A stretch of 64,000 nt of DNA, taken from NCBI RefSeq assembly GCF_035917455.1, contig NZ_CP109078.1, forward strand, positions 7,114,001-7,178,000, read 5' to 3'. Source of the stretch: Micromonospora sp. NBC_01796. Lineage in GTDB: Bacteria; Actinomycetota; Actinomycetes; Mycobacteriales; Micromonosporaceae. A program made the position numbers and the translations under genes. Below, piece after piece: positions 16,616 to 25,234 of the stretch (its first letter is position 1; each line of letters begins with the position of its first letter). Below the pieces are notes generated by a model. It saw nothing but the letters and a program-made list of their open reading frames with translations, searched no databases and was not told the origin of the DNA.

Positions 16616-16709
16616 CGGCAGATCGTAGCGGGGCGACCGTCCGACCCCGCCCCGTCGGGGGGATGACCAGCGGGGCGTAAAGCGCTGGGCGGGTGGCCCC
16701 GCCCGGCGG

Positions 16710-16715
16710 TACAGT
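16710..16715 (+). promoter_or_regulatory. -10 element TACAGT of the Ala leader (leaderless transcript)
   Basis: TACAGT is followed by CGGGGC and then GTG at 16722. With transcription starting 6-7 nt after the -10 box, the mRNA would begin at the GTG, giving a leaderless leader peptide. An analogous arrangement (TAGCGT-CGGGGC-ATG) precedes the STAND gene at 18207. Confidence 0.55.
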
Positions 16716-16721
16716 CGGGGC

Positions 16722-16790
16722 GTGGAGATCACCCGTGGGTATACCGCCGCAACCGCGCGAGCTACCAGCTCGTCGGTTGCCGCCGCCTGA
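16722..16790 (+). CDS. Alanine-rich leader peptide of the AlaRS-like gene
   Basis: A 22-codon ORF (GTG to TGA) with seven alanine codons: four within codons 9-14 (GCC GCA, GCG, GCT) and three consecutive GCC at codons 20-22 just before the stop. It ends 113 bp upstream of the alanyl-tRNA synthetase-like gene and starts about 7 nt after a TACAGT -10 box. Its Ala codons lie inside the first of two mutually exclusive hairpins. This is the layout of a ribosome-mediated attenuation leader sensing charged tRNA-Ala. It is shorter than usual gene-calling cut-offs. Confidence 0.6.
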   Translation: MEITRGYTAATARATSSSVAAA

Positions 16791-16832
16791 TCTTCCCATT
16801 CCCCGCCGGCGACCGGAAACGGTCCGCCGGCG
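16749..16832 (+). promoter_or_regulatory. Predicted transcription attenuator (leader hairpin / antiterminator / terminator)
   Basis: Leader hairpin: 16749-16755 pairs perfectly with 16774-16780 (GCAACCG/CGGTTGC), continued by 16758-16763 with 16767-16772. Terminator-like hairpin: 16804-16815 pairs with 16820-16832 (12 bp, one bulged C at 16824, GAAA tetraloop). Competing pairing: 16774-16782 can pair with 16807-16815 (9 bp, one G-U), which would break both. A ribosome stalled at Ala codons 9-14 would melt the leader hairpin and favour the competing helix, allowing read-through into the synthetase gene. The pairings are read directly from the sequence; the regulation is inferred. Confidence 0.55.
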
Positions 16833-16903
16833 CATCGGTTCATCGCAGGACATCCCGCGTCGGTAGTCCCTTTCCGGTCGTCATGACCCGAAAGGCCACT
16901 GCC

Positions 16904-18076
16904 ATGACACCGGACCGGATCGTCCGCACCTTCGTCGACTACTACCGGGAGCGGGGACACCTGTTGGTCCCCGACACCTCGCTGATCCCGCCGCCGGGTG
17001 ATCCGGTGCTCTTCACCACCTCCGGCATGCATCCGCTGACCCCGTACCTGGAGGGACGCCCGCATCCGCTCGGGCGGCGTCTGGTGAACCGCCAGCGCTG
17101 CCTGCGTACCACCGACCTGGACGAGGTCGGGGATCACACCCACCTGACCGTGTTCGAGATGCTGGGGTCGTGGTCACTCGGCGACTACGGCGGCTCGCAG
17201 AGCCTGCGCTGGGGCTACGACCTGCTGCGGGAGGGATTCGGCGTCGACCGGGACCGGCTGCACGTGACCGTGTTCGGCGGCGACGACCTCGTCGGGCCGG
17301 ACACCACCTCGCTGGAGACCTGGGGCGACCTCGGCGTACCGGTCGAGTTGACCAGGGAGGAGAACTGGTGGTCGAACGGGCCGACCGGACCCTGCGGGCC
17401 CGACTCGGAGATATTCGTCTGGACCGGACAGACCCCACCGGAGGGCACGCCGGGCACCGACGACCGCTGGATGGAGGTCTGGAACCACGTCGGGATGCGC
17501 TACCACCGTCACGACGACGGCCGCCTCGAACCGCTGCGGCAGCCCAACATCGACACCGGGATGGGACTGGAGCGGATGGAGATGGTGCTGACCGGCGGAC
17601 GTTCGGTGTTCGAGGGCGACGGCTTCGAGCCGTGGGTGCGTACCGTCTCCGGGCTGTGGGGGCAGGAGGGGGAGTCGCTGCGTCGGGTCTGCGACCACCT
17701 GCGGTCCTGCGTCGTGGTCGTCGGTGACGGCGTACGACCGTCGAACACCGGCCGGGGGTACGTCCTGCGCCGGCTGGTCCGCCGGGTGCTCACCACACTC
17801 TGGCGGGACGACCCCTCGCGGAGCCTGTCCGACCTGCCCCCGGATCCGTTCCTGCACACCGTGGACCGGTTCCGGCAACCGGTGGACGTTCATGACCTGC
17901 GCGACCTGCTCTCCGAGGAGGAGCGTCGGTTCCGGGACCTGCTCCTGCGGGGACGTCCGCTGGTGTCCCGTACCAGGTCCCGTGGCCCGTTGACCGAGGA
18001 GGACTACCACTACCTGCACGACACCCACGGGTTGCCGCGCGAGCTGGTCGACGGCCTGCTGGGCGAGGCGGTCTGA
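16904..18076 (+). CDS. Alanyl-tRNA synthetase-related protein, catalytic core only
   Basis: 390 residues covering the class II AlaRS aminoacylation core. Motif 1 region FTTSGMHPLTPYLEG (about 36-50), the strand containing NRQRCLRTTDLDEVGDHTHLTVFEMLGSWSLGDY (motif 2, about 58-92), NWWSNGPTGPCGPDSEIF, and the motif 3 region NIDTGMGLERM (about 210-220) are intact. It then carries part of the helical tRNA-recognition region (NTGRGYVLRRLVRR). Housekeeping AlaRS is about 880 residues; here the editing domain (HxxxH...CxxxH) and C-Ala domain are absent. It may charge tRNA, make Ala-AMP or Ala-tRNA for another enzyme, or protect against an AlaRS inhibitor. I chose the second ATG (16904), with GAAAGG 9 nt upstream, over ATG 16883, which has none. 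A probable alanine attenuator lies upstream. Confidence 0.85.
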   Translation: MTPDRIVRTFVDYYRERGHLLVPDTSLIPPPGDPVLFTTSGMHPLTPYLEGRPHPLGRRLVNRQRCLRTTDLDEVGDHTHLTVFEMLGSWSLGDYGGSQSLRWGYDLLREGFGVDRDRLHVTVFGGDDLVGPDTTSLETWGDLGVPVELTREENWWSNGPTGPCGPDSEIFVWTGQTPPEGTPGTDDRWMEVWNHVGMRYHRHDDGRLEPLRQPNIDTGMGLERMEMVLTGGRSVFEGDGFEPWVRTVSGLWGQEGESLRRVCDHLRSCVVVVGDGVRPSNTGRGYVLRRLVRRVLTTLWRDDPSRSLSDLPPDPFLHTVDRFRQPVDVHDLRDLLSEEERRFRDLLLRGRPLVSRTRSRGPLTEEDYHYLHDTHGLPRELVDGLLGEAV

Positions 18077-18206: not shown

Positions 18207-19898
18207 ATGGCACATGAAGAGCCGCTGGCACAGTTCGCGGCCCGGTTGCGCGACCTGCGCGCGGAATGCGGCGGACCGTCGGTGCGGGACCTGGCGGAGT
18301 ACATGAAGGAGGCCGGCCGGCCGTTTCCCCGGTCGACGATCAGTGACAAGCTCGCCGGTGTCTCCAAGCCGTCGTGGGAGTTCGTCGAGGCGTACGTGCG
18401 CACCTGTGCCCGCCTCGGCGGTCGCCCCGCCGACCTCGACGACTGGCGGTCGTCGTACCGCAGGCTCTTGCAGGAGCTGGCGCGGCGACGCTCCGGGCAC
18501 CGGCAGGCGGTCGCCGCCCACCTGGAACTGACCGCGACCGGCCCGGCGGCGCGTGCGGTGCCGGGCCTGGTCCCGGCGGCGGACCCGCCGCGTCAGCTGC
18601 CCGGCGACATCCCGGCCTTCACCGGCCGGGAGGCCGAGTCCGCCGCCCTGGACGACCTGCTGACCACGGCGGCCTCCGCCGGAGCGGTCGCGGTCGTCTC
18701 GGGTACGGCGGGAGTCGGCAAGACCGCGCTCGCGGTGCACTGGGCGCACCGGGTGGCCGCCGCGTTCCCCGACGGGCAGCTCTACCTCGACCTGCGCGGG
18801 TACGACGTGGACGCGCCGGTCACCCCGGTCCGCGCGCTGGAGGGTTTCCTGCACGCGCTCGACGGCAACCGGGCCCAGCCGTGGGGTGGGGTGGACGAGC
18901 TCGCGGCCCGGTTCCGGTCCCTGGTGGCAGGCCGGCGGATGCTGCTGGTGCTGGACAACGCGAACTCGGTCGACCAGGTACGCCCGTTGCTGCCCGGCAC
19001 GGCGTCCTGCTTCGTGCTGGTGACCAGCCGCGACCGGTTGACCGCCCTGGCCGTCCGGCACGGCGCGCGGCGGGTGGCACTGGACCGGTTGCCGCTGGAC
19101 GAGTCGCTGCGCCTGCTGGGGGCGCTCGTCGGACCGCGGGTCACGACCGACCCGGAGTCGGCCGCCGTACTCGCCCGAAGGTGCGCCCAGCTCCCGCTGG
19201 CCCTGCGGATCGCCGGTGACCTGGCCGCCGCCCGCCCGACCGCACCGCTGGCGGTCCTTGCCGCGGACCTTGCCGACGAGCAGCACCGGCTCGACCTGCT
19301 CGACGCGGGCGGCGACGAACGTACCGACGTCCGGGCGGTCTTCTCCTGGTCGTACCGGCGGCTGGATCCGTCGGCGATGCGCCTGTTCCGTCTGCTCGCC
19401 CTGCATCCTGGTGACTTCGACCGCTACGCCGCCGCGGCGCTCGCCGGACTGCACCCGGCACAGTTGCACCGGCCACTGGAGACACTGCTGCGCACCCACC
19501 TGGTCCAGCGGGTGGACGGGGACCGGATGGAGTTGCACGACCTGCTCCGCGCCTACGCCAACGAACTGCTCCGCGACGACGAGCGCCGGCGGGTCGACGT
19601 CCTGGTCGACTACTACCGGCACGCCGCCGTCGCCGCGCTGGACGTGGCGTCACCCGACGACCGGTACGACTGGCTCACCCGTGGCGGATATCCCGGCACG
19701 CTGCCACCGTTCGCCGATCCGGACGCCGCCCGGCGCTGGCTGGACGCGGAACGGCCGAACCTGATGGCGGTGACGGACTACGCCCACCGGCACGACCGGT
19801 GGGACGAGACCAAGCAACTGTCGGCGATGCTCTGGCGCTACCTCGACCTCGAACCGGCGACCGACGGCGAGCACCTGCTGCTGTCCTATTCGACGTAG
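18207..19898 (+). CDS. Xre-HTH / NB-ARC (STAND) regulator, C-terminally truncated
   Basis: 563 residues. N-terminal HTH-like domain (about 5-85, SVRDLAEYMKEAGRPFPRST...DKLAGVSKPSWEFV), an NB-ARC ATPase with Walker A SGTAGVGKTA (about 164-173), Walker B-like RMLLVLDNANS and the sensor stretch LVTSRDRLTAL, then winged-helix and helical regions (LLRAYANELL). Homologous AfsR-like STAND proteins continue with several hundred residues of TPR repeats. Here the protein stops just after the first helices (RYLDLEPATDGEH...SYST), 15 bp before the end of the convergent HxlR gene. The TPR sensor therefore seems lost, perhaps by deletion at the junction with the HxlR gene. DNA binding could be retained while ligand sensing is missing. 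Leaderless start. Confidence 0.8.
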   Translation: MAHEEPLAQFAARLRDLRAECGGPSVRDLAEYMKEAGRPFPRSTISDKLAGVSKPSWEFVEAYVRTCARLGGRPADLDDWRSSYRRLLQELARRRSGHRQAVAAHLELTATGPAARAVPGLVPAADPPRQLPGDIPAFTGREAESAALDDLLTTAASAGAVAVVSGTAGVGKTALAVHWAHRVAAAFPDGQLYLDLRGYDVDAPVTPVRALEGFLHALDGNRAQPWGGVDELAARFRSLVAGRRMLLVLDNANSVDQVRPLLPGTASCFVLVTSRDRLTALAVRHGARRVALDRLPLDESLRLLGALVGPRVTTDPESAAVLARRCAQLPLALRIAGDLAAARPTAPLAVLAADLADEQHRLDLLDAGGDERTDVRAVFSWSYRRLDPSAMRLFRLLALHPGDFDRYAAAALAGLHPAQLHRPLETLLRTHLVQRVDGDRMELHDLLRAYANELLRDDERRRVDVLVDYYRHAAVAALDVASPDDRYDWLTRGGYPGTLPPFADPDAARRWLDAERPNLMAVTDYAHRHDRWDETKQLSAMLWRYLDLEPATDGEHLLLSYST

Positions 19899-19913: not shown

Positions 19914-20399
19914 TCAGAGCGCGGCGGCGTAGGCGGCGGCGAGGCGTTCCGTGGCGCTGGGACCGTCCCGTTCCGGTGCCGGTTCGGCGAGGTGGGTGGT
20001 CCGCAGCTCGGCCATGAAGTCGCGCCACAGCTCCGGCCCACCCGCCGCGAGCAGTTCCGTCCGTACCCGCAGTCGTGGTGTGGTCGGGCGGTGGTGCAGA
20101 CCCCACTCGCCGAGCTGGGCGAAGACGGGCACCAACTGGATCGACGCCTCGGTCAGGCTGTACGCCGCCCGCCGCCCCGGCCCCGCGTCCGCACGGGTCA
20201 ACAGGCCGGCGTTCACCAGCCGTTTCAGTCGGTCGGCCAGGATGTTGGAGGCGATTCCCTCCTCGGACCCGGCCAGCAGCTCCCGGAAGTAGCGCCGGTT
20301 GCCGAACATCACGTCCCGCAGTACCAGCAGGCTCCAGCCGTCGCCGAACGCCTCGACGGCGGCATTGATCGGGCAACCCGAACGCGGCGGCTTCGCCAA
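19914..20399 (-). CDS. HxlR-family transcriptional regulator
   Basis: 161 residues. The winged-helix core CPINAAVEAFGDGWSLLVLRDVMFGNRRYFRELLAGSEEGIASNILADRLKRLVNAGLLTR is typical of HxlR (MarR-related) regulators, which usually repress an adjacent enzyme gene in response to aldehydes or redox stress. Residues 105-161 are a longer-than-usual charged tail. I chose the TTG at 20399, which has GGAGGTGAG about 7-15 nt upstream, because no ATG or GTG in frame has such a site. A palindrome GGTTGCAACC lies 21 bp upstream and could be its operator. Confidence 0.8.
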   Translation of the reverse strand: MAKPPRSGCPINAAVEAFGDGWSLLVLRDVMFGNRRYFRELLAGSEEGIASNILADRLKRLVNAGLLTRADAGPGRRAAYSLTEASIQLVPVFAQLGEWGLHHRPTTPRLRVRTELLAAGGPELWRDFMAELRTTHLAEPAPERDGPSATERLAAAYAAAL

Positions 20400-20415
20400 T
20401 TCGTACTCACCTCCG

Positions 20416-20429
20416 AACCGGTTGCAACC
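20416..20429. promoter_or_regulatory. Palindrome upstream of hxlR-type gene
   Basis: AACCGGTTGCAACC contains two overlapping palindromes (AACCGGTT and GGTTGCAACC) about 20 bp upstream of the HxlR start. HxlR proteins bind short palindromes near their own promoters, so autoregulation is plausible but not shown. Confidence 0.35.
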
Positions 20430-20482
20430 TACCACCGGATGGTTCGACGTCCGGCTGCCGATCGCGAAGCGGATGTTCGGCG

Positions 20483-21019
20483 TCAGGCGAGCGGACGGAC
20501 GATGTCCCGGGCATGGTCGACCACGGCCGCACCCACCACGGTCGCCTCCAGCGGCAGCACCTCCAGGCATCGCCGCACGGCCGCGGCCATCAGCGAGTTC
20601 GGTACGCGCATCGACAGGGTGCAGTGCGGCACCCACCGGCCCGGCTGGTAGTGGTCGGCCAGGTCCACCCCGGCCCCGGTCAGCCGGGCGTGCACCTCGG
20701 CGTGGTGAGCCAGCATCTCCGGGGTCGGTGTCGGCCCGAGCCACAGCACCCGTCCCAGGAACTGCCCGGAGTGCTGGAAGGACATCCGCAGCGGTGCCGC
20801 CACGACCATCCCGGTCAGGGCTTCGGCCACCCGTACCGGGTCGAGACGCGGCGCCACCGCGAGCGAGACGTGCGGGCGGTGCCGCTGGCCGAGCAGCGAC
20901 CGCATGCTCTGCACACCCTCGGACTCCAGCGCGTCCCACAGCACCCGGATCCGCCGGGTGGCGTCCGGATCCAGATACAGTTCGAGCGCCGCGACCACCT
21001 GATCACGATAGTGGTCCAC
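20483..21019 (-). CDS. 2'-5' RNA ligase / LigT-superfamily protein
   Basis: 178 residues with two HxS/T motifs characteristic of the 2H phosphoesterase superfamily: RPHVSLAV (about 48-55) and VPHCTLSMRV (about 130-139). These enzymes open or close cyclic phosphates or 2'-5' linkages in RNA and nucleotides; the substrate here is unknown. The gene starts 16 bp after the ion-channel gene ends on the same strand, suggesting co-transcription. Confidence 0.8.
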   Translation of the reverse strand: MDHYRDQVVAALELYLDPDATRRIRVLWDALESEGVQSMRSLLGQRHRPHVSLAVAPRLDPVRVAEALTGMVVAAPLRMSFQHSGQFLGRVLWLGPTPTPEMLAHHAEVHARLTGAGVDLADHYQPGRWVPHCTLSMRVPNSLMAAAVRRCLEVLPLEATVVGAAVVDHARDIVRPLA

Positions 21020-21034
21020 GATCGCCCCCGAGGA

Positions 21035-21997
21035 TCAGGTGCGGTTGCCGGCCGTACGCCGGGCCTTCGACCGCCTGCCTCGCGGCCGACGGGGACTGCC
21101 TGCGGGTTGCCGCTGCCGGGCCAGTTCGGCCTCCAGGGCGTTCAACGCGGTCCGCAGCTCGCGTAGCCGTTCGCCGACGAGTTGCGCACTCTCCGGTGGA
21201 TCCGGAACCGGTGGGGGAGGGGGAGGCGCCTGCTGCTCGGGGACCGTCCGGGCGGCCGGCTGCTCGGCCTGGTGGGCCTCCTCCAGCGCCTTGAGCACGA
21301 TGCCGATCAGCAGGTTCGTGAGCAGGTACGACGCCACGATGATGTACGAGGTGTAGTAGGGGATGCTCCACTCGGAGACGAGCCGTCCGGTCTCCAGTGC
21401 GTCGGTGATCCCGTCCAGCGACAGCAGCAGGAACAGGGTGAGCATCGCCCGCCCGACGGTGCCGTACCGGTCCGGGTAGGCGTCCCCGAAGGTCATCCAG
21501 CCGACCATCGCGTAGAGGTAGACGGTCAGCGTCGCGATCAGCAGGAAGCTCCCCAGGCCGGGCAGGCTGCGCAGGACGCCACCGATGATCATTCGTAGGC
21601 TGGGGAAGAGGCGTACCGCCCGGACGACCCGGGCCAGCCGGAACAGCCGCAGCAGGGTGACGTTCTCCCGTACGCCGGGCAGCAGCGGGGCGCAGACGAC
21701 CAGGAGGTCGAAGACGTTCCACCCGTCGCGGAAGAAGGTGCGCGGGGTGGCGAGATGCGCGCCGAACCGCAGACCCAGTTCGATCGTGAAGCAGGCGAGG
21801 CAGGCGTACTCGACCGCGAGCAGGGCGCCGCCGGCCCGGTCCAGGGCCTTGTCGTACGTCTCGACACCGAGCACGACCGCGTTGACGATGATCACGCCGA
21901 AGGCGACGGCGTTGAACCAGTCCGCGCCCACCACCCGCCCACACCAGCTCGTCACTCGTGATCTGACGGCCGCCGGTACCTCGTTCACGCCGAGCAC
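21035..21997 (-). CDS. Voltage-gated ion channel, single six-helix domain (BacNav-like)
   Basis: 320 residues. S1-S3 lie within about 25-105; S4 (about 114-134) has five arginines spaced every third residue (R117, R120, R123, R126, R129), the voltage-sensor pattern. S5, pore loop and S6 fall at about 148-238. The selectivity-filter region reads LLSLDGITDA (191-200), with Asp195 where bacterial sodium channels carry the Glu of TLESW. The tail has an alanine/proline-rich linker (PPPPPPVPDPP) and a C-terminal coiled coil (about 265-300, LRELRTALNALEAELARQ), which usually drives tetramer assembly. Ion selectivity cannot be read with confidence from this filter. Confidence 0.85.
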   Translation of the reverse strand: MLGVNEVPAAVRSRVTSWCGRVVGADWFNAVAFGVIIVNAVVLGVETYDKALDRAGGALLAVEYACLACFTIELGLRFGAHLATPRTFFRDGWNVFDLLVVCAPLLPGVRENVTLLRLFRLARVVRAVRLFPSLRMIIGGVLRSLPGLGSFLLIATLTVYLYAMVGWMTFGDAYPDRYGTVGRAMLTLFLLLSLDGITDALETGRLVSEWSIPYYTSYIIVASYLLTNLLIGIVLKALEEAHQAEQPAARTVPEQQAPPPPPPVPDPPESAQLVGERLRELRTALNALEAELARQRQPAGSPRRPRGRRSKARRTAGNRT

Positions 21998-22104: not shown

Positions 22105-25011
22105 TCACGGCCCCGCGGTGGACGCGGCCCTGTCGGACCTCTGCAGGGCGTGCACCGGCGGTACCGGTGGCCTGGACGGCGGCGGTTGTTGCACCGTTCG
22201 GGCCACCTTCGCCCGCACCTGCTCGGCGTCGGGATGGCCGAGCGCGTCGAGGATGTCGAGGGCCGCGAGCCAACTGGTCCGGGCGGCTTCCGGATCGCCC
22301 GCGGCCCGGTGGCTGTCGCCGATGTGGGTGAGGGTGTCGGCCTCGTAGTAGCGGTCCCCGACGTCGCGGAACAGGTCGACCGCCCGGCGGTAACACGCGA
22401 TGGCCTGCCGGTGGTTGCCGAGATGGTGGTGGGCGTAACCGAGGCTGTCCCAGGTGTTCGCCTCACCGAACCGGTCGCCGACCCGGCGCAGCAGGACGAG
22501 CGCGCGTTCGCAGTGGTGCAGGGCCTGCCCGTGGTCGTGCAGTTGGGCGTACTGCCACCCGACCGAGTTGAGCGCGCGGGCCAGCATGGCGAGGTCCCCG
22601 AGGGTTTCGAACCGGGCGAGCGCCCGCTGGGCGTGGGCGAGTCCCCGCCGGTGGCTGCCCTGCCGGGACAGGACCCAGGCGATGCTCCGGTCGGTGTGCG
22701 CCTGCCCGGCCAGGTCACCGAGTTCGTCGTACAGGCCCGCCGCGAGGCGCAGATGGGCATGTGCGTCGGCGAACCGGCCCAGTTGTGCGCGGGCCCGCCC
22801 GAGACCGCAGTGCACGCTCGCGGCCGCCCGGTGGTCGGCCAGCCGCTGGGTGGCGGCGAGCGCGGTCTCCTGGGTGGCCGCCCAGTCCCGCCAGTGCCCC
22901 TTGCGGTCCAGGAAGTCGGCCATCGTCCAGGCCAGCCGCCACACGTGGCCGTGCAGGCCCTCGTCGGCGGCCCGCGCGACCGTGTTGAGCAGCACCAGGT
23001 GTTCGGCGGTGAACCAGACCATCGCGGAGTCGGCGTCCGGGCTCGTCACCGCCGTGACGCCGGGGCGGGCGGGTTCCAGGTCGATCAGGTCCCGGAACGG
23101 CTGCAACAGCCGGGCATGGGCGTACGCCGAGTGCAGGTAGTGGTCGAGCAGCCGGTGCGTCGCCGCCCGCCGCTCGGCCTCGCTGTCGACCTCGCTGGCC
23201 AGCTCGGTGGCGTACGAGCGCAGCAGGTCGTGGAAGCCGAACCGGCCGGCCGTGTGCTCCATCAGCAGATGGGCACGGGCCAGCGTGGCCAGCAGGGCCC
23301 GTGCCTGCCGTGACGGCACACCGGCGAGGCTGGCTGCGGCAGGGGCCGAGACGTCCGGACCGGGATGCAGCCCGAGCAGCCGGAACAGTCGCCCGGCGTC
23401 CGGACTCAGCGCGCGGTAGGACCAGGAGAAGACACCGCGCACGTCGGTGGCCGGGTCGCCGCCGTCGAAGGCGTCCAGCGCCCCCGCCGCGTCACGCAGT
23501 TCGTCGGCGAGCGCGGACAGGGGGAAGCCGGGGCGGGTCGCGGCCCGGGAACTGGCGATCGCGAGGGTGAGCGGCAGCCCCGCGCAGCTCGCGATGATCT
23601 GGTCGACGGCGCCGGGCTCCTCGGCCACCCGTTCCGTCCCGAGCCGGCGGACGAGCAGGTCGCGGGCCTCGACCGTCGGTAGCGGATCGAGCGCGAGCGG
23701 GTACGCACCCTCGGTGGCGATCAGCGGCGTGAGCTGGTTCCGGCTGGTCACCAGCACGAGGCAGCCGGCGGAGCCGGGCAGCAGCGGGCGTACCTGGTCC
23801 GGGTCACGGGCGTTGTCCAGCACCACCAGGATCCGTCTGCCGGCCAGCAGGCTCCGGTACAGGGCGGCCTGCGGTGCCAGCCCGACGGGGATCCGTTCCA
23901 CCGGCACCCCGAGCGCGTCGAGGAAGCCCCGGACCGCCTCGGCCGGGTCCATCACGGATCCGCCGGCGTCGAACCCGCGCAGGTTGACGTAGAGCTGGCC
24001 GTCCTCGAAGTGGCCGGCGACCCGGTGCGCCCAGTGCACGGCCAGGGTTGTCTTGCCCACGCCCGGAGTCCCCGACACGGCGGCGATGACCGGCGTCGGG
24101 GGACCGGTGGCGTCGAACCCGCCGAGCAGGCGGTCGAGCCGGCCGAGTTCGGCGGTACGGCCGGCGAAGGCGCGTACCGCGGGTGGAAGCTGGGCCGGGA
24201 CCGATCCCCGCCCGACGCCGGACCCGGTCCGACCAACCGCGGTCGACCCGGCGCCCACCTCGATCGCGGCCGGCACCGGGTCGAGCGCCGGATCCTGGAG
24301 CAGGATCGCGTTCTCGAGGTCCCGCAGTGCCGGCCCCGGCTCGATGCCCAGGTCCTCGTCCAGCCGGTGCCGCAGCCGGCGGTACGTCGCCAGCGCGTCG
24401 GACTGCCGCCCGGCCCGGTAGAGGGCGAGCATGAGCTGCTCGTGGATGTGCTCGTCGAGATCGTGTTCCTGGCTCAGGACCTCCAGCTCCGGCACGAGCC
24501 GGGCGTGTTCGCCGAGCGCCAACCGGACGTCGGTGAGGGCCCGTACGGCCACCAGGCGGACCCGCTCCAACCGCTCGGCCTGCTCGTCCAGCCAAACCGG
24601 GCCGGTGACGTCCACCAGCGCCCGCCCGCGCCACAGGTCGAGGGCGGCCCGCAGGCAGGTGTCGGCGTGCGCATGGTCGGCGGACCTCGTGCCCTCGCGG
24701 ATCAGGTGCTCGGCCGCGCCGACGTCGACCGCCTCGACCGGCAGGTCCAGCAGGTAACCCGGCCGCCGGGCCACGATCGGAGCCGGCGCGCCGATCGTAC
24801 GGCGCAGGTACGACACGTGACTCTGCAGGCTGTTCAGCGCGGTCGCTGGTGCCCGGTCGCCCCAGACGACGTCGATGAGCCGGTCGGTGCTGACGATCTC
24901 GCCCGGATGCAGGGCGAGTACGGCGAGCACCGCCTTCCGTCGCAACCCGGAGAACGTACGCGGTGCACCGCCGACGGTCACGTCCACCGGCCCGAGCAGC
25001 CTGACGCGCAT
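22105..25011 (-). CDS. SARP-type regulator with NB-ARC and TPR domains (AfsR-like)
   Basis: About 968 residues. Winged-helix DNA-binding domain at about 1-90 (LLGPVDVTVGG...LRRKAVLAVLALHPG...VVWGDRAP), bacterial transcriptional activation domain at about 95-245 (LWRGRALVDVTG, LMLALYRAGRQSDALATYRRLR), NB-ARC ATPase with Walker A VSGTPGVGKTT (about 313-321) and RILVVLDNARDPDQ, then TPR repeats (about 680-950). AfsR-class proteins activate secondary-metabolite or developmental genes. The nearest gene is the divergent secreted PLAT protein; the target is unknown. The start is either ATG 25011 or the in-frame GTG at 25032; I favour the ATG because MRVRLLGPV is the typical beginning. Confidence 0.9.
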   Translation of the reverse strand: MRVRLLGPVDVTVGGAPRTFSGLRRKAVLAVLALHPGEIVSTDRLIDVVWGDRAPATALNSLQSHVSYLRRTIGAPAPIVARRPGYLLDLPVEAVDVGAAEHLIREGTRSADHAHADTCLRAALDLWRGRALVDVTGPVWLDEQAERLERVRLVAVRALTDVRLALGEHARLVPELEVLSQEHDLDEHIHEQLMLALYRAGRQSDALATYRRLRHRLDEDLGIEPGPALRDLENAILLQDPALDPVPAAIEVGAGSTAVGRTGSGVGRGSVPAQLPPAVRAFAGRTAELGRLDRLLGGFDATGPPTPVIAAVSGTPGVGKTTLAVHWAHRVAGHFEDGQLYVNLRGFDAGGSVMDPAEAVRGFLDALGVPVERIPVGLAPQAALYRSLLAGRRILVVLDNARDPDQVRPLLPGSAGCLVLVTSRNQLTPLIATEGAYPLALDPLPTVEARDLLVRRLGTERVAEEPGAVDQIIASCAGLPLTLAIASSRAATRPGFPLSALADELRDAAGALDAFDGGDPATDVRGVFSWSYRALSPDAGRLFRLLGLHPGPDVSAPAAASLAGVPSRQARALLATLARAHLLMEHTAGRFGFHDLLRSYATELASEVDSEAERRAATHRLLDHYLHSAYAHARLLQPFRDLIDLEPARPGVTAVTSPDADSAMVWFTAEHLVLLNTVARAADEGLHGHVWRLAWTMADFLDRKGHWRDWAATQETALAATQRLADHRAAASVHCGLGRARAQLGRFADAHAHLRLAAGLYDELGDLAGQAHTDRSIAWVLSRQGSHRRGLAHAQRALARFETLGDLAMLARALNSVGWQYAQLHDHGQALHHCERALVLLRRVGDRFGEANTWDSLGYAHHHLGNHRQAIACYRRAVDLFRDVGDRYYEADTLTHIGDSHRAAGDPEAARTSWLAALDILDALGHPDAEQVRAKVARTVQQPPPSRPPVPPVHALQRSDRAASTAGP

Positions 25012-25234
25012 CTGGTCCCGCCCCCACCCCACCGGAAATATGGGCCCAGGCTATCGGCGGCGCAACCGGACCCGGGCGGCTCAGTCGGACACCGGACCAT
25101 CGGCGGTTTCAGTGTCGCGTCAGCACCGTTGTGGAGCCCCCTGCGAGATTCGTGTCCAGCGTCGGCGACCCGCCGGCACGCGCCATTCCGGATCTCCACC
25201 CGATTTTCGGATCTCTTTCGCAGGGAAGGTCGTC

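Follow-up and report, generated by a model that had tools for sequence, protein, structure and literature searches.

A conserved alanine-codon leader precedes a truncated alanyl-tRNA synthetase paralogue in actinomycetes and is a candidate ribosome-mediated attenuator

The leader and the synthetase gene at the locus

A short leader open reading frame (ORF) precedes a gene for a truncated paralogue of alanyl-tRNA synthetase (AlaRS) in Micromonospora sp. NBC_01796. Both lie in a 64,000-nucleotide stretch of contig NZ_CP109078.1 (positions 7,114,001 to 7,178,000 of the forward strand), termed the window, to which the coordinates of this locus refer (Table 1). A gene for a DUF2809 protein (Pfam PF10990; 16202 to 16666, minus strand) is divergent from the leader. 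Beyond the synthetase gene, two NB-ARC proteins are encoded near each other (18207 to 19898, plus strand; 22105 to 25032, minus strand), the second being SARP-like with BTAD and TPR domains, and a row of minus-strand genes at 19914 to 21997 encodes an HxlR regulator (19914 to 20339), a 2'-5' RNA ligase superfamily protein (20483 to 21019) and an ion-transport-type channel (21035 to 21997).

Table 1. Features of the leader and the downstream gene in the window
Feature	Position	Strand	Description
-10-like TACAGT	16710-16715	+	6 nt 5' of the leader GTG
Leader ORF, VEITRGYTAATARATSSSVAAA	16722-16790	+	22 codons, GTG16722 to TGA16790, seven Ala codons
Hairpin 1 (segments 1:2)	16749-16780	+	From the fold and pair counts; swap test, p = 0.003
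Putative sensing Ala codon 1 (GCA)	16749-16751	+	Offset -3; Ala in 84/85 elements, all four synonymous codons used
Putative sensing Ala codon 2 (GCG)	16755-16757	+	Offset -1; Ala in 84/85 elements, three codons used
Putative sensing Ala codon 3 (GCT)	16761-16763	+	Offset +1; Ala in 85/85 elements, two codons used
Segment 2	16774-16782	+	Can pair with segment 3 at 16807-16815 (9 bp, one G.U)
Hairpin 2 (segments 3:4), terminator-like	16804-16832	+	12 bp, GAAA loop at 16816-16819, one bulged C; swap test, p = 0.0002
Segment 5, long complement of hairpin 2	16856-16883	+	Its end is the left arm of hairpin 3; duplex of -41.4 kcal/mol in the window
Hairpin 3	16869-16895	+	From the fold; covers Shine-Dalgarno GAAAGG at 16890-16895
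AlaRS core paralogue (catalytic and tRNA-recognition parts)	16904-18076	+	390 aa from ATG16904; without editing domain

The TACAGT hexamer would place the transcript start at or next to the leader GTG, making the leader leaderless, and TAnnnT was present 5 to 8 nt 5' of the leader start in 81 of the 85 unique leader elements collected from related loci (see below). An earlier note on this DNA had claimed a 22-codon ORF of the leaderless type with seven Ala codons, and re-reading of the coordinates confirmed this description. Seven Ala codons in 22 are by themselves weak evidence because the DNA is so GC rich (72% for the elements); the case for a putative Ala leader is built on comparative data and not on the Ala count.

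Folding of positions 16722 to 16910 gave -89.8 kcal/mol compared with -66.9 ± 4.0 kcal/mol for 200 shuffled sequences, none of which folded as well (z = -5.8). Hairpins 1 and 2 and the alternative pairing of segments 2 and 3, all proposed in the earlier note, were found again at the same positions. That note had described hairpin 2 as a 12-bp terminator-like hairpin with a GNRA loop; the hairpin stood, but a terminator alone was an incomplete account, since the window has no T-run at this place and since a feature absent from that note, hairpin 3, lies over the Shine-Dalgarno site of the gene. A search of the window with Rfam gave no matches at the gathering score, and no T-box was among the seven unrelated sub-gathering matches at 16650 to 16960 (E values of up to 10).

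The downstream protein matched Pfam tRNA-synt_2c (E = 2e-82) up to profile position 405 of 552. With NCBIfam alaS it scored 296.9 bits against a cut-off of 457 and, at 390 aa, did not classify as a full-length AlaRS. A longer AlaRS with 40% identity to the window paralogue is encoded elsewhere in the genome, and the intact proteins of the elements (n = 46) were 376 to 413 aa in length. Residues were counted in 50 intact paralogues, with L094 (a 62-aa frame-broken fragment at an assembly N) left out; 4 of 10 loci of the class-wide sample passed the protein filter for these counts. The Arg, Trp, Asn and Asp of motif 2 and the Arg of motif 3 were kept in all 50, the Asn of the G3:U70 type in 42 (replaced in 8) and the Asp in 47 (replaced in 3). 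In AlaRS, these motif 2 and 3 residues act in activation, and this Asn and Asp read G3:U70. All the activation residues and both the Asn and the Asp were present in the window protein, which on this count has a class II AlaRS core. The Glu of FEMLG was variable (E in 21, Q in 12, D in 11 and R in 6 of the 50 paralogues), and the host's own AlaRS has Q at this place. An alignment with PDB sequences indicated that motif 2 is without the GGKHN of other bacterial enzymes, as is that of the host's own AlaRS. The short loop of motif 2 was not taken to mean that the enzyme is inactive, because the loop of the host's own AlaRS is equally short. The paralogue may be a backup synthetase that takes over under inhibition or starvation of the main AlaRS.

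Distribution of the leader and its linkage to the gene

Close relatives of the paralogue were detected by protein search in Micromonospora, Planosporangium, Jidongwangia, Streptomyces, Pseudonocardia, Umezawaea and Occultella, and distant AlaRS (35 to 44%) were detected in three records from uncultured lineages. AlaRS genes 40 to 41% identical to the window protein are also present on plasmids of Peribacillus and Exiguobacterium (NZ_CP068052.1, 44256 to 45161; NZ_CP053558.1, 82632 to 83537). At a cut-off of E at most 1e-90, 76 of 354 genomes of the window's family carried the paralogue. The leader was searched for with R2, a 90-position covariance model that spans hairpins 1 and 2 and specifies each of them explicitly. 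R2 found one leader each in 76 of the 354 family genomes, identical to the 76 paralogue carriers; as R2 was built largely from family members, the presence of the leader within the family is a circular result, whereas its absence elsewhere is not. Among 394 genomes sampled across the class, the leader was found in 12, again the same 12 as the paralogue, with one weak match (E = 0.0086), and 10 of these 12 matches lie outside the window's family. The window's own genome had a single strong R2 place (E = 7e-16), the next best having an E value of 0.8. In one genus of another family, R2 matched in 76 of 392 genomes, and some members of this genus grouped with named Streptomyces in the gene tree. 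Analysis with tblastn placed the paralogue downstream of the leader in all 38 R2-found loci that were examined, and no leader copy was seen 5' of any other gene among these 38 loci and the family rows.

Upstream DNA was collected from the 76 family rows and from 16 named loci, 92 in total, and all but one of these regions yielded a leader built on the same plan. The 91 leaders comprised 85 unique sequences, which need not stand for as many species; L101 was left out of the leader set because the slice of DNA taken there cut off its leader, which R2 does detect. Leader and paralogue are a conserved unit and occur together. Streptomyces and Streptantibioticus plasmids (eight records, two of them from one strain) also carried copies of the paralogue with 64 to 69% identity, and both of the plasmid copies inspected were annotated as alanine--tRNA ligase-related protein.

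In a gene tree of 24 proteins, 8 of 21 inner branches were well supported. The Planosporangium row, which belongs to the Micromonosporaceae, fell outside the well-supported clade of the window, which was too little for a claim of horizontal transfer. No neighbour family was common to more than 4 of 17 loci (25 largest groups), and a conserved gene neighbourhood was, therefore, dropped as a clue to function; the neighbour families that did recur were mostly those of four Streptomyces or three Micromonospora loci.

The earlier note knew of no described alanine attenuator of this kind in actinomycetes, but one does appear as a printed table entry, AlaL (SLIV_01313), with the peptide MNVIGRNIFATARATSSPVAAA, listed upstream of alaS SLIV_01315 in Streptomyces lividans TK24 (PMC8079986). 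AlaL is placed there among attenuators identified by RNA-seq, with alanine dependence being named (PMC8079986). The AlaL peptide is letter-identical to the leaders of L132 and L133, and the window leader shares its core. Because the gene downstream of these two identical leaders encodes a truncated paralogue of 404 aa, as counted from the start of the match, the published S. lividans alaS is most likely the truncated paralogue and not the housekeeping gene. The passages of PMC8079986 on AlaL describe neither an RNA structure nor a distribution and do not remark on a truncated paralogue. New beyond the printed AlaL are the RNA anatomy, the covariation, the gene linkage and the plasmid carriage, whereby a single table entry becomes a family with defined parts. 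Beyond AlaL, literature searches confined to open-licence papers gave no alanine leader.

Conservation of the Ala codons and RNA helices

Leader codons were numbered as offsets from an invariant CGA. In addition to the three putative sensing codons (Table 1), Ala was found at offset -4 in 56 and at offset -5 in 14 of 85 leaders, indicating that these positions are not fixed. Of the six bases at first and second positions in the three codons, five sit in the stem of hairpin 1 and could be conserved for RNA pairing alone. The remaining one, at the second position of codon -1, is bulged out of this stem but was still C in 84 of 85 leaders, which speaks for coding. The C-terminal Ala run, which starts in segment 2, was looser (AAA, ADA, APA, AAV and AAAC). 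In a folding model with an assumed ribosome reach of 13 nt and the sensing codon in the A site, the probability of the 2:3 pairing was 0.09 with the ribosome at codon +1, 0.03 one codon further on and 0.00 at the codon after that. All three Ala codons are predicted to allow 2:3, codon 3 being the last stall position that would leave this pairing free. As in known attenuators, the leader is a short ORF whose control position carries codons for the amino acid that would be sensed.

Pairing was examined in two alignments: A1, consisting of 79 of the 85 unique elements (six near-copies left out), and A2, consisting of 89 of 90 sources (L119 being below threshold) and fitted to the 1:2 and 3:4 helices, 2:3 having had no part in the fit. 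For helices 1:2 and 3:4 of A1, 95.0% of cells were paired and 47 were double-change cells, neither value being reached in 500 shuffles, while the number of pairs with a double change was reached by 24 of 500. The corresponding values for A2 were 94.9% and 79 double-change cells (0/500 shuffles); in all such counts, related sequences can beat shuffles without structure. The 2:3 pairing was intact in 97.0 to 97.6% of cells compared with at most 62% when the segments were slid (at most 60% on the 89 loci). Double-change cells for 2:3 numbered 6 in A1 and 11 on 89 loci (0/500 shuffles), but 10 of these 11 occurred at one pair, from U-A to C-G, and perhaps reflect one event; further pair types were no more frequent than in shuffles (492/500 reached the count).

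A swap test, in which cognate segments were compared with non-cognate segments in 33 clusters at 80% identity, detected a preference for cognate partners in hairpins 1 and 2 (Table 1). Hairpin 2 also preferred its own pre-Shine-Dalgarno region, segment 5, with the cognate sequence beating swapped ones in 23 to 24 of 33 clusters (p = 0.0017 to 0.0019). No significant signal was obtained in these clusters for 2:3 (p = 0.34), for 5:6 (p = 0.22, 0.13 and 0.21) or for six further pairings (p = 0.41 to 0.97). A finer run with 11 pairings traced the signal with segment 5 to the loop side of segment 3 (p = 0.0055) and to the loop plus segment 4 (p = 0.0058), the signal being absent from 3a (p = 0.72) and from segment 4 alone (p = 0.40 and 0.82). 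Hairpin 2 was also highly conserved in sequence, including a mostly GAAA loop.

These analyses indicate that helices 1:2 and 3:4 are conserved with covariation, as would be expected of an attenuator, with thinner support for the 2:3 pairing and for that between hairpin 2 and segment 5. The earlier note had proposed that orthologous upstream regions be aligned for conserved Ala codons and covarying pairings. In this comparison, orthologues retained the leader together with its Ala codons and helices, although covariation of 2:3 was thin, and the layout suggested by that note, putative attenuation before an AlaRS paralogue, was thereby partly supported.

Proposed attenuation, its output and alternatives

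The leader is probably a ribosome-mediated attenuator that senses the charging of alanyl-tRNA and induces a backup mini-AlaRS. At the sequence level, the parts, their conservation and linkage, helices 1:2 and 3:4 and the hidden Shine-Dalgarno site are all evident; ribosome stalling, termination and release of the Shine-Dalgarno site would be the steps that join them. A leaderless transcript would begin with the leader ORF. With plentiful alanyl-tRNA, the ribosome would reach the stop codon and cover segment 2, so that segment 3 would fold with segment 4 into hairpin 2, which would either end transcription or, in read-through mRNA, leave the Shine-Dalgarno site shut in hairpin 3. With scarce alanyl-tRNA, the ribosome would halt at the Ala codons at 16749, 16755 or 16761 and open hairpin 1, and the freed segment 2 would pair with segment 3 before segment 4 is complete, with loss of hairpin 2. 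Segment 4 and the loop side of segment 3 could then pair with segment 5, an event that would open the Shine-Dalgarno site in part of the lineages, including that of the window.

Both termination and translation were considered as possible outputs. The region after hairpin 2 contained 2.8 T per 10 nt compared with 1.6 in the next 10, and a T-run of 4 to 7 was found just 3' of hairpin 2 in 6 of 85 elements compared with none of 85 in a downstream control stretch. Such a run was absent from the other 79 elements, including the window (which reads CATCGGTTCA), and a scan for consensus intrinsic terminators detected nothing at hairpin 2 in the window. In hairpin 3, a CCUUUC-like strand lying upstream is paired with the Shine-Dalgarno site, which in the window is GAAAGG. 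The unpaired probability of this site was 0.135 compared with 0.394 with shuffled upstream sequences (mononucleotide shuffles, at most four sequences per cluster) and was lower in 29 of 33 clusters. Conditional folding was performed on the 30 of 33 clusters with the needed columns. Forcing of 2:3 raised the exposure of the Shine-Dalgarno site from 0.01 to 0.46 in the window but only from 0.149 to 0.161 on average (higher in 12 and lower in 3 of 30 clusters; p = 0.011), and strong 4:5 pairing was then present in 7 of 30 clusters. Exposure barely varied with ribosome position at equilibrium (0.17 to 0.20), giving no clear switch in this model. Coupling of 2:3 to Shine-Dalgarno release was rejected as a general rule, being weak across clusters, and was kept only as a lineage-dependent effect. 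At equilibrium, hairpin 2 was favoured over 2:3 by an average of 3.2 kcal/mol (30 clusters) and at every ribosome position, the probability of 2:3 being about 0.1 at the decision point. Hence, a switch would need co-transcriptional kinetics, with 2:3 forming before segment 4 is complete. For transcripts ending early in segment 4, 2:3 was folded in 7 of 8 examples, compared with 2 of 8 for those ending after hairpin 2.

A variant within this explanation is purely translational attenuation, in which the leader would only open the Shine-Dalgarno hairpin and hairpin 2 would be an RNA switch rather than a terminator. The closed Shine-Dalgarno sites in 29 of 33 clusters, the cognate complementarity of hairpin 2 to the region before them, the missing T-runs and the effect of forced 2:3 in the window make this variant possible, but we consider it doubtful given the T enrichment after hairpin 2, the T-runs of 6 elements and the weakness of the coupling in most clusters. 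In the macrolide-inducible erm leaders, it is the peptide itself that stalls the ribosome together with a small molecule. Arrest of this kind would fit with the presence of R, A and S at fixed places in all 85 leaders and with the accessory nature of the gene, which is also plasmid borne. The fixed R and S codons, however, fall within the stem of hairpin 1, while other residues vary (S, T, A, F, I or H at offset +2; R, S, C or G at offset +3), as does the C-terminus (VAAA, AADA, AAPA, VAAV, AAAC or VATG), and nascent-peptide arrest is, consequently, regarded as improbable. We give as little weight to a structured 5' leader that binds a protein, such as the paralogue itself in autoregulation, with the ORF being incidental. 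The strong sequence conservation of hairpin 2, with its mostly GAAA loop, and the one-to-one linkage with the gene would be accounted for by protein binding, but Ala was kept despite third-base variation, even at a base bulged in hairpin 1, and the -10 element is conserved beside the start codon.

The role of the enzyme was considered separately from that of the leader, since it could supply or transfer aminoacyl groups in natural product biosynthesis, like AcmF of ascamycin, rather than act as a spare AlaRS. Extra AlaRS-like proteins of actinomycetes are indeed reported in the ascamycin system, in which AcmF is likewise truncated (370 aa) and AcmD has 871 aa (PMC12945691, PMC4257720). AcmF is, however, reported to be without most activation residues and without the Asp-plus-Asn pair for tRNA recognition (PMC12945691), all of which the window protein keeps. 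The word "leader" is absent from PMC12945691. Replacement of the G3:U70-type Asn in 8 and of the Asp in 3 of 50 paralogues would be in keeping with a donor or transferase. As most paralogues keep these residues (42/50 and 47/50, respectively) and as no neighbour family was shared by more than 4 of 17 loci (25 largest groups), we consider such a role unlikely.

An attenuated spare synthetase may have a counterpart in trpRS1 of Streptomyces coelicolor, reportedly described by Vecchione and Sello in 2010 as an auxiliary, antibiotic-resistant synthetase gene under ribosome-mediated transcriptional attenuation. The likeness would lie in an auxiliary synthetase gene being controlled in this manner; the difference is that trpRS1 concerns Trp, not Ala, and that antibiotic resistance, reported there, is only supposed for the mini-AlaRS. 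Elements for trp, cys and leu genes of actinobacteria are described in PMC1262725, including classical attenuators 5' of trpS and leuS in some Streptomyces; an alanine case is not among them, with "alanine" and "alanyl" occurring zero times in the main text of that paper.

Tentatively, the unit as a whole may be read as a self-contained and mobile stress cassette, carried by both chromosomes and Streptomyces plasmids, that combines a sensor of alanyl-tRNA, stacked transcriptional and translational locks and an editing-less mini-AlaRS resistant to AlaRS-targeting antibiotics. Inhibitors of AlaRS in soil would have to be common enough to select for it, and mistranslation with Ser or Gly would be a possible cost. 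Should the enzyme prove to be a spare AlaRS with such resistance, carriage of the cassette would point to hosts exposed to AlaRS-targeting antibiotics, and the leader could serve directly as a reporter in screens for compounds of this type.

Some leaders departed from the common plan. Those of L090 (455 to 541) and L092 (445 to 530) are shortened in segment 2 and have differing hairpin 2 loops, possibly representing a variant attenuator. In the distant relatives L098 (398 to 579) and L099 (249 to 453), hairpin 2 has a GGACAC loop that is matched by GUGUCC 5' of the gene.
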